From Mycteria americana (Eukaryota; Chordata; Aves; Ciconiiformes; Ciconiidae): 64,000 nt of DNA. The notes below the pieces were generated by a model. That model made no database searches, was not told the origin of the DNA, and was given only the letters and a program-made list of their open reading frames with translations. This document shows, one piece after another, positions 6,695 to 13,999 of the stretch (position 1 is its first letter; each line of letters begins with the position of its first letter). The translations under genes were made by a program, and so were the position numbers. The DNA lies in NCBI RefSeq assembly GCF_035582795.1, contig NC_134366.1, forward strand, positions 138,346,756-138,410,755, read 5' to 3'.

Positions 6695-6818
6695 CTGACA
6701 AATACAGTACACACAGTGGAAAGAGGCATTTTGAATCAATTACACGTACAGCTAATGGAACTGCGAAGTTGTCAAGGTTATAAGCAGTGCAATCCGAGGC
6801 CGAAGGGACTTGAAACAG
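6695..6818 (+). CDS. SULF1: SULF1 exon: [11 protein letters not shown]...RPKGLET
   Basis: This 124-bp exon follows CTTTTCTTCAG. It encodes [40 protein letters not shown] and T, then one base (G) of the next codon, before GTAAAA. It completes the conserved C-terminal domain. This exon is the branch point for the two possible C-termini. Joined to 7700-7733 it gives the standard ending. Joined directly to 13176 it opens a 274-residue alternative tail, because the leftover G plus AG makes a Glu codon in the long frame. Confidence 0.96.
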
Positions 6819-7699
6819 GTAAAAGAAAAAGAGAAATGTTTATTTCCATTTTATTCATTTTTTTCCACCTGCTTAAGTACTAATTGTATCCATGAAGTCT
6901 CGCTCTCCTAAGTGTTGCTCTGAATAGTTTGGAACGATCCACATACACCGTCCTGCACAACCGCAGGAGCAGGGAGCTTCTTTGCAAGTTTGCACGGATA
7001 CTGATGGCAAAGCACAAGCTTTGACAGAAATGCTGCAGAAAAGTTCTCATGTTATTTGAGCTAATCAACAACAAGCATATGCAGATCTCCATAGTCATAA
7101 CTCCTCTCTGTTGCAGGGTTTATTTGGTTAGTTTTTGCCTCCCAGTAGCAGGTGAGGTATTAAATCCTGTGTTTATTCCAATTGCTGTCTGTCCATATGA
7201 ACAACCTCAGGCTCTACATCACAACTGAGACTTAACATTGCAAACTTCTCATCAGCTGTAGTCCCCTCTGGTTTTGAGGAAAGCAATATTTCTTTACAAG
7301 AGTCTCTGAGTACAAAAATAGCTGGTATTTATACTTCATTCCTCTGGAATTCATTGCACTTAAATTTGGTTGATTGAATATTGCGATTTTTTTACAGGCA
7401 TATTTCCTTCTACATATTTTGTGTTGTTGCATCTTTGTATCTCTTTCTTCACCTACAAATGTTTCTCCTTTTTACAATATCTAATTGTTTGAGGGTTTTA
7501 TTATTTTTGAAAAACGGTGGTTTTTCAGTTCTTTTATATAAAACTTCCAGGAAATCTTTGTTGGACTGCAGCTCTGCCTTTATTTAACACAGTACATTTC
7601 TTTTTAGGAATTAGATGCTGTGCATGGAAAACTACATTGTGAATGGTTTTACAAGTTCTAAACACTAACAAAAGTTACTCTTGTATTTTCCTATATCAG
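6819..7699 (+). other. SULF1: SULF1 intron
   Basis: GT-AG intron of 881 bp. It is plain AT-rich sequence with T-rich runs around 7380-7500 and no recognisable element. The acceptor side (TTTTCCTATATCAG) has an interrupted pyrimidine tract, so it is relatively weak. Confidence 0.8.
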
Positions 7700-7733
7700 G
7701 AAATAAAGATGGAGGAAGCTATGATCCACACAG
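7700..7733 (+). CDS. SULF1: SULF1 34-nt penultimate exon (candidate cassette exon)
   Basis: This very short exon completes Gly, then reads [10 protein letters not shown], then two bases of Arg. Its length is not a multiple of three (34 = 11 codons + 1 base). The acceptor tract is broken by purines and the donor GTATCC is poor at +4 to +6, both typical of an exon that can be skipped. The canonical SULF1 C-terminus needs it. Skipping shifts the terminal exon into a different frame, which happens to be open for 274 codons. Presence of the exon is well supported by homology and phase; alternative use is inference. Confidence 0.93.
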
Positions 7734-8428
7734 GTATCCACACTTTTTTATTCTCCTCAGCAGCTTCTTTCCAAATAATTGCATGACTCCAGCCCATCTC
7801 AACTAATGTCTGTATCCCGCCATGTTGCACACAGCATAGCTTTTGATGCATGCATTTTCTAACTACTCTACACTGGACTTGGCCATTGTTTTTTAGATCT
7901 ACCATTCTGCATTTAACGTAGCTCCTTGTCATAGCAAGACTTCATACAGCTCATATTCCATGCCTGTATTTCTTAGATGTTTACACAGGGAAAATGACAC
8001 AAAAAGAATCACCTCTTTTGAGTTGTTTTCCTGTTGTTGGGTCGATTTTGAATGGGTTGGGGTTTTTTTCTGGTTTTATTTAGGAAGTCTGTACAGCTGC
8101 TTTTTAAACGTAAACCAGATGTGATTAAAAAGCTTTCTGAGGTATATGTATCCAAAGAGCCTAATCAAACCTACGGAAGCAAAGTAAAATCTTCTCACTG
8201 GCTTTAGGAAATGTTGGCAGATGCTGCTTCAAGCAAAAGCAGTGCTCAGCGTGAGCAGCAGGTGCTCAGAAGGCAGCAGGAGACAGGTCAATATAAGCAT
8301 GACAGAAAGATGAGGCTCCTTTGGGTAGGGGGGCCGACGCTTTCAGACCAGATCACACACGCATGAAATGAAGTTTCTTGAAAAGATTGTAATATTTGAA
8401 CTGAGGAAGGGCACCAGGTGAACCTTCC

Positions 8429-12900: not shown

Positions 12901-13175
12901 AAGCCCCATTAGACCAGATTTTGCTTTTTCACTCAGTCCAAGGATGTAGCAGAAGACAGGGAGTTTCTTGCTGTGTGTGCAGCAGGAGCTGTGAACACAC
13001 CTGAGCCCACAATCATTAATATGATGACAGAAGATGTGGAGCGTCTTACATTTTGAGCTACATACATTATGAATAGTGGTGCTTTCATGCAAATTGCTGT
13101 AGAAACACACGTGGAAGCTTTGCTTGCACTTTTAAGCTGGTGTTCACCATTAGGCTTTCTTCTTTCTTTCAACAG

Positions 13176-13206
13176 AGGACAGCTATGGGATGGATGGGAA
13201 GGCTAA
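13176..13206 (+). CDS. SULF1: SULF1 terminal coding segment (canonical stop)
   Basis: After CTTTCAACAG the exon completes Arg and reads GQLWDGWEG followed by TAA at 13204-13206. This is the standard SULF1 C-terminus, a Gly-Gln-Leu-Trp-Asp/Glu-Gly-Trp-Glu-Gly ending shared by Sulf-1 and Sulf-2. The same exon continues as 3' UTR for about 2.4 kb in this reading. Confidence 0.96.
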
Positions 13207-13999
13207 CCTGCCCAATTTCACTGGTGACATCAACTGGCAAGGACTGGAAGACTTGTACAGTGTGAATGAAAGTGTATATGAATACAGATACAACTATAGA
13301 CTTAGTCTGGCTGACTGGACTAATTACTTGAAGGATGTAGATAGAATGTTTGCACTGCTGAACAGTTACTACCAGCAAAATAAAACAGACAAGGCTAACA
13401 CTGCTCAAAGCAAGGGGGATGGGGACGAATCATCCACGCCGACTACCTTGGTGGAAATGGCTTCTGCTGAAGAATCAAGCGGCCTGCCTGCAGAAGAGTT
13501 GCAGCTTATTGTGCCAACGGACTTTGCAGCCCTCGCTTTGAGCACGGTGATTTTAAGTCAGGAGAGGAAACTTGAATTAAACAATGATATTCCTGAGAAA
13601 AGTAGTTTGAATGACGCACACTGGAGAAATAATCATCAAGCTGAAAAATGGATGGAGGATAAAGAATCGGACCGTTTTGATATGGATTTCAGTGGAAACG
13701 GTTTGATAGAGTTGGAGTCCCAGCATAGCTTCATGCTACAACCCATCAGCATTCCTCAAAAAGACACTCATCAGGACGGTGACACTGTGGAAGATATATT
13801 TGAAGATCAAATATATCTTCCTGTGAGGTCTGATGAAGCCCTTGTTCATCAGGCTGTAAACGTATCCATTAGGGATTCATCTATCGGTACCCAGAAAACA
13901 GGAACTTTCTTTAAAAAACCGGAACAGAGTCTTGCAGGGGAAACTTCACAAATCCTAAATGTAGAAGGCAGTGCCTCAGCTCCACTCTCCTTGGATTAG
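13176..13999 (+). CDS. SULF1: Candidate alternative SULF1 C-terminal tail (274 aa), reached by skipping exon 7700-7733
   Basis: The terminal exon is open from its first base to TAG at 13997-13999 in the +1 frame relative to canonical SULF1. Direct splicing of 6695-6818 to 13176 gives ACA G|AG GAC AGC TAT GGG ATG, so the tail would begin EDSYGMDGKANLPNFT. It ends EGSASAPLSLD. The tail has no cysteine and no hydrophobic membrane segment. It contains four N-glycosylation sequons (NFT, NES, NKT, NVS), a Tyr/Trp-rich helical-looking start (NWQGLEDLYSV to NYLKDVDRMFALL), and then an acidic Ser/Thr-rich remainder. Two Ser-Gly pairs sit in acidic surroundings (EESSGLPAEE and DFSGNGLIELE), resembling glycosaminoglycan attachment sites. 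Secretory-type features without their own signal peptide fit a tail on a secreted protein better than an independent cytosolic protein. An alternative reading is an overlapping ORF starting at ATG 7709 (282 aa, A at -3 and G at +4) or at ATG 13190 (269 aa). Expression is unproven. Confidence 0.6.

Follow-up and report, generated by a model that had tools for sequence, protein, structure and literature searches.

The 64,000-nt stretch of Mycteria americana DNA analyzed here (NC_134366.1, positions 138,346,756 to 138,410,755 of the forward strand; hereafter, the window) carries on its plus strand the 3′ part of SULF1, the exons of which for the catalytic domain with the formylglycine site lie upstream of the window. 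By editing heparan sulfate, SULF1 and its paralogue SULF2 modulate signaling by Wnt, FGF, VEGF, and others. Exons were placed, from their splice sites and the spliced translation, at 620 to 866 (the first in the window, encoding part of the hydrophilic domain and supported also by PF12548), 2658 to 2754, 2840 to 2934, 3357 to 3422 (66 nt), 3911 to 4083, 6449 to 6591, and 6695 to 6818 (124 nt), followed by a 34-nt cassette exon at 7700 to 7733 and a terminal exon starting at 13176. Splicing of these nine exons yields a 335-residue frame with the standard end GQLWDGWEG. The joined exons matched PF12548 (DUF3740, "Sulfatase protein") over the full profile (E 2.3e-70), placing the gene among those that combine DUF3740 with a Sulf-type C-terminal region. 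We take it to be SULF1 rather than SULF2, given the presence of a separate SULF2 locus in the same genome.

The terminal exon of SULF1 can be entered in two frames. Exon 6695 to 6818, the donor of which is common to both forms, ends one base into a codon. Inclusion of the 34-nt exon leads into the standard C terminus, with a stop at 13204 to 13206, whereas its skipping creates a Glu codon at the junction (G|AG) and opens a frame of 273 further residues at 13178 to 13999 (TAG at 13997 to 13999). The start of the terminal exon (13176 to 13206) is therefore dual coded, reading (R)GQLWDGWEG in the standard frame and (E)DSYGMDGKA in the long one. Skipping exchanges the last 21 standard residues for 274 new ones. 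A first-pass annotation of this DNA had proposed the phase of exon 6695 to 6818, the 34-nt length of the cassette exon, and the G|AG junction, all of which were borne out by spliced translation. It was also correct in describing the terminal exon as open from 13176 to 13999 in a noncanonical frame, the stop-free run in fact starting at 13154, inside the intron. Since both forms stop in the last exon, neither mRNA should be a target of nonsense-mediated decay, a structural expectation derived from an established rule. A separate protein initiated at the internal ATG at 13190 (context GGGATGG), which would make the splice switch unnecessary, was considered and discarded for lack of support for a separate promoter. 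Downstream of the long-frame stop, AATAAA signals occur at 14050, 14513, and 15561. The G+C content is 0.43 in the intron just upstream of the terminal exon, 0.425 at 13800 to 13999, 0.355 at 14000 to 14199, and ∼0.25 near 14800 to 15000.

Judged by its sequence, the long SULF1 frame is a true alternative C-terminal frame that bears the hallmarks of coding DNA. The two other forward frames of the terminal exon (13176 to 13999) contain 15 and 28 stops. The 273 open codons were not approached in 5,000 dinucleotide shuffles (maximum open run in any forward frame, 178 codons), and no other stop-to-stop frame on the two strands of the window is as long. The period-3 Fourier ratio of the frame (7.35) resembled that of the known SULF1 coding sequence in the window (942 nt; 6.90 for the first 822 nt and 5.90 for the last 822 nt) and was reached by none of 1,363 equal-length control windows (maximum, 4.41), from which segments overlapping 600 to 6900 or 13100 to 14020 had been excluded while the opposite-strand transporter exons were kept. 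The shuffles and the period-3 power thus uphold the earlier statement that a frame of 274 codons is unlikely to arise by chance. Codon log-odds were likewise higher for the long frame than for all controls, each represented by the best of its six frames, with a model trained on the small set of upstream SULF1 exons in the window. Within the terminal exon, the long frame scored best in four of the six full 45-codon blocks.

A search of the 1.35-Gb assembly to which the window belongs (contig C2), with the SULF1 tail as query, returned the tail itself and one other place, on the minus strand of contig C14 (8086460 to 8086660; E 1.1e-12), with 50% identity over residues 1 to 64. Within 29.7 kb around this match, six standard SULF1 C-terminal stretches matched in order and were followed by RGQLWEGWEG, a match with an E value of 0.13 by itself but correctly placed. 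On the strength of the match, we take this locus (coordinates prefixed L003) to be SULF2. Its last standard exon starts with AGGACAACTGTGGGAAGG; one frame of the terminal exon reads RGQLWEGWEG*, and skipping leads into a frame with the sequence EDNCGKDGRANLPQLLHLREDTNWLELETMYRLNENVYDFRKNYNVSLEDWINFEAEIDRMFALV. The SULF2 exons, placed by splice consensus and similarity, have comparable phases: a counterpart of SULF1 exon 6449 to 6591 is present, the 124-nt exon ends one base into a codon, and a micro-exon of 31 nt, which leaves the same remainder modulo 3 as its 34-nt counterpart, is accompanied by a further, frame-keeping exon of 57 nt. Residues 1 to 61 of the SULF1 tail (13178 to 13360) form a conserved module homologous to the SULF2 skipping frame (L003:4470-4661, minus), with 32 identities among the 61 aligned residues. 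Being kept in SULF2, the start of the tail has the appearance of an ancient protein sequence under selection and not of an accident in untranslated RNA. In two standard exons compared between the genes, synonymous sites were at or close to saturation (pS 0.73 and 0.88), as would fit a very ancient divergence. The two paralogues are commonly attributed to the early vertebrate genome duplications. Because the exon arrangement is common to both, the dual-frame terminal exon is probably older than their separation and, if that attribution is right, older than those duplications.

The two tails cease to be similar at MFAL. At this point SULF2 carries a consensus donor, CTG|GTGAGT (L003:4472, i.e., C14:8086471, minus), which lies after the standard stop and falls between two codons of the alternative frame. 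By a weight matrix, this donor ranked among the best 0.24% of all GT sites in the locus. A further alternative exon may follow it; if unspliced, the SULF2 tail would consist of Glu plus 83 residues. A downstream 101-codon SULF2 frame was rejected as a relative of SULF1 tail residues 58 to 273, given that 410 of 500 shuffles scored as high.

Conservation of the module was assessed at the protein and DNA levels. When the same 52 substitutions were randomly placed on the SULF1 sequence, the observed BLOSUM62 sum over the 61 codons was reached in 2 of 20,000 trials, and in 1 of 20,000 for codons 11 to 61, which the standard frame does not overlap. The protein similarity is thus greater than conservation of the nucleotides by itself would produce. 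Over these latter codons, synonymous sites differed more often (∼16 of 30) than nonsynonymous sites (∼32 of 123; rounded estimates, Fisher P 0.0075). A frame-blind DNA alignment of the two genes placed a single 9-nt gap within the module, and the skipping frame was stop-free over the aligned part in both, versus 3 and 9 stops in the other two frames.

The SULF1 tail is acidic (48 Asp/Glu and 21 Lys/Arg; pI 4.3), with 3.7% Pro, no PxxP motif, and a hydrophobic stretch at residues 108 to 126 (mean hydropathy, 1.78). The absence of Cys, which had been pointed out before, was confirmed and is notable against 8 and 16 Cys codons in the other two frames. The first-pass annotation had further cited four N-glycosylation sequons and acidic Ser-Gly sites as fitting a secreted protein. 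The sequon count is right but carries less weight than claimed, being ordinary for this composition (2.6 expected, P 0.26). As for Ser-Gly, the plural did not hold: there is one good candidate, DFSGNG at 13685 to 13702, in which Ser172 (codon 13691 to 13693) is preceded by 6 acidic residues among 12 and followed by the remainder of SGNG. No Ser-Gly occurs in the standard SULF1 part within the window. A 2026 preprint reports that SULF2, and not SULF1, bears chondroitin sulfate, attached at GGDFSGTGG behind an EDQDDKD stretch; the acidic cluster is needed, neither part alone suffices in SULF1, and variants with the chain show higher activity and occur at higher levels outside cells (PMC13405426). 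The SULF1 described there has 871 residues and ends at Gly871, i.e., at the standard end, without chondroitin sulfate (PMC13405426), and both Sulfs have 870 to 875 residues in the available part of a review (PMC3890690). The candidate in the tail, EDKESDRFDMDFSGNG (13655 to 13702), resembles the SULF2 signal, EDQDDKDGGDFSGTGG, in having an acidic cluster, as the preprint text requires, ahead of DFSGxG, but the SULF2 site is located in the hydrophilic domain and the SULF1 candidate in the alternative C terminus (PMC13405426). SULF2 of this genome keeps the acidic cluster before SGTGG. Among 200,000 shuffled tails, SGxG with at least 5 acidic residues in the preceding twelve appeared in 562 and DFSGxG in 44; the likeness was examined after the preprint had been read and is a lead rather than a test. 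Neither NCBIfam (tail) nor Pfam (modules) returned a match, and scans of viral contigs, bacterial and archaeal genome contigs, and plasmids for stray vertebrate copies disclosed no relative. A Pfam phage match to the tail (E 0.008; 16.8 bits versus a cutoff of 25) was below threshold and taken as chance, and a PDB search with a two-sequence profile retrieved an unrelated enzyme only (E 0.17).

Three TGCATG hexamers flank the cassette exon on the plus strand, one upstream (7621 to 7626) and two downstream (7780 to 7785 and 7847 to 7852). RBFOX proteins bind TGCATG and usually promote inclusion when bound downstream of an exon and skipping when bound upstream. Whereas three of the 20 plus-strand TGCATG copies of the window lie within 200 nt of the 34-nt exon, a motif search found none within the same distance of the seven other nonterminal SULF1 exons, and no 434-nt stretch elsewhere in the window contains three. 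TGCATG, one of seven motif patterns first examined, is the most enriched hexamer of the cassette flanks, with an uncorrected P of 1.7e-4 that would lose its significance if all hexamers were corrected for. Flanking introns with such clustered (T)GCATG elements are what is expected of an RBFOX-type target, and these motifs suggest that the 34-nt exon may be regulated in this manner. The weak donor and interrupted pyrimidine tract that had been ascribed to the cassette exon are real but not distinctive: the donor of exon 620 to 866 scores lower than that of the 34-nt exon (by the weight matrix), and five acceptors, among them those at 2658 and 2840, are less pyrimidine rich.

Mammalian SULF1 presumably has a related open frame at the same place, as the first-pass annotation also supposed. 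The literature on mouse backs this assumption. Preussner et al. (2020) described frame-shifting skipping of penultimate exons that turns 3′ untranslated regions (UTRs) into coding sequence, defining splicing-accessible coding 3′ UTRs by at least 20 new residues, of which at least 10 lie in the annotated 3′ UTR (PMC7392665). In SULF1, ∼264 of the 274 new residues lie past the position of the standard stop, which puts the tail within this definition (PMC7392665). In the main text, Sulf1 is mentioned once, in the methods, as one of four mouse genes with printed splicing-sensitive primers; those for Sulf1 flank the penultimate exon and served to assay the event by reverse transcription-PCR (RT-PCR), and skipping is said to yield the frameshift protein (PMC7392665). 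The mouse forward primer matches the window at 6779 to 6801, in the 124-nt exon. The reverse primer is uninformative at the DNA level (291 of 635 controls reach its alignment score), and the similarity of one of its frames, ASNIDEYR, to SVNESVYEYR of the window is a hint only. The SULF1 arrangement in the window is like that class in gene and exon position and in the predicted skipping of a frame-shifting penultimate exon, translation of the 3′ UTR, and avoidance of nonsense-mediated decay. It differs in lacking the enrichment in Pro, Cys, and PxxP motifs that is usual, though not defining, for the class (PMC7392665). Furthermore, the independent evolution of longer tails offered there as a possible explanation contrasts with the conservation of the SULF1 tail start as protein in two paralogues. 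Dhoot and colleagues have described other Sulf variants, QSulf1B and forms without exons 6, 7, 8, and 18 (PMC8999074, PMC3890690), which are similar in that alternative splicing of a Sulf has signaling effects. In the passages available, however, those variants are shorter, the constructs cited are inactive, and no long C terminus appears (PMC8999074, PMC3890690); their exon numbering, as given there (PMC8999074), could not be matched to the 34-nt exon. In the accessible literature, which comprised few subscription papers and no supplements, we found neither a long SULF1 isoform reported for any bird nor its SULF2 counterpart. The event was already under study in mouse; what is new here is the evidence for selection at the protein level, the start shared with SULF2, and the atypical composition.

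On balance, SULF1 very probably has two mutually exclusive C termini, encoded in overlapping frames of the last exon and chosen by the 34-nt cassette exon. The toggle between a short and a long ending proposed by the first-pass annotation stands insofar as it concerns an alternative coding frame reached by skipping, the exon phases, the coding signature, and the conservation of the first 61 residues in SULF2. Several observations weigh against this interpretation. By codon usage, another forward frame scores slightly higher at tail residues 91 to 135 and 226 to 270. No known domain was recognized in the tail, and neither the tail nor the joined standard part had a match in PDB; AlphaFold gave no confident fold for the tail (mean pLDDT 32, too poor for use), and a 63-residue module piece modeled with two sequences as three helices (mean pLDDT 55) was also too poor for use. 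In SULF2, the tail frame is entered only if both the 31-nt and the 57-nt exons are skipped, and skipping of the micro-exon alone leads to an early stop. No match to tail residues 62 to 273 was detectable at the SULF2 locus; the old conservation thus covers the first 61 residues, and the case for the remainder is made by coding statistics of a single sequence. The SULF2 micro-exon with 300 nt on either side contains no TGCATG and one GCATG, so RBFOX-type control, if real, may not be common to both genes. Finally, the substitutions in the module are distributed over the three codon positions as 12, 14, and 22, which by itself is not significant (P 0.17), and its synonymous sites (∼16 of 30) are less diverged than those of the two standard exons (43 of 54; P 0.014). 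Such a difference makes it possible that RNA-level constraint or gene conversion contributes to the similarity of the modules. The low synonymous divergence covers 13208 to 13360 of the window and L003:4473-4661 (minus).

These last two observations are those expected if a nucleotide-level element, acting in splicing or mRNA stability, were what is chiefly conserved in the terminal exon and the reading frame were incidental. We regard this as highly improbable, given how rarely randomly placed substitutions attained the observed protein similarity and that an open frame of 273 codons with periodicity far beyond the module would be left unexplained. It is also quite unlikely that skipping of the penultimate exon is splicing noise and the tail a by-product, i.e., unselected and often destabilizing translation of a 3′ UTR as in mammals. 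A tail with so little Pro, no PxxP, and no Cys is not typical of that class, its codon periodicity equals that of real exons, and it is conserved with SULF2 at the protein level. The tail might instead be the disused C terminus of a Sulf ancestor, open merely for want of time, and the fact that just the first ∼61 residues are still recognizable in SULF2 would agree with such decay. Nevertheless, 273 stop-free codons with full periodicity, in a gene pair with synonymous sites so close to saturation, argue for selection until recently, and in the mouse study the skipped form is handled as a current splice event (PMC7392665), making a relic very unlikely.

Elsewhere in the window, exons of an organic anion transporter occupy the minus strand at 27453 to 28019, 32298 to 32639, 54303 to 54641, and 63348 to 63752, all four with PF03137, and are arranged tail to tail with SULF1. 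By synteny, this gene is presumably SLCO5A1. Open frames at 45737 to 46346 (plus) resemble a CR1 retroelement reverse transcriptase, as judged by a motif, and point to the genome of a bird or reptile; 45737 to 46039 gave no Pfam match.

In the favored interpretation of two alternative C termini, inclusion of the 34-nt exon would produce the standard secreted form of the enzyme, with GQLWDGWEG at its end, and skipping would put in place of the last 21 residues 274 acidic, cysteine-free ones comprising a conserved aromatic and hydrophobic module of ∼60 residues followed by an acidic, probably disordered stretch. The skipped mRNA would be made in this species, the ratio of inclusion to skipping may be set by RBFOX-type proteins at the three TGCATG sites, and the tail could alter the retention or movement of SULF1 outside the cell, possibly through a glycosaminoglycan at DFSGNG. 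A broader and rather unlikely proposal is that both Sulf paralogues possess an ancient micro-exon switch that, under RBFOX-type control, would convert SULF1 from a plain enzyme into a part-time proteoglycan, its tail contributing, by way of splicing, a SULF2-like chondroitin sulfate signal of the kind present in the hydrophilic domain of SULF2. If the two endings are real, SULF1 constructs of standard length would represent one of two natural forms, and this gene would be a clear case of a "3′ UTR" in which an alternative frame encodes an ancient protein sequence under selection and not noise.

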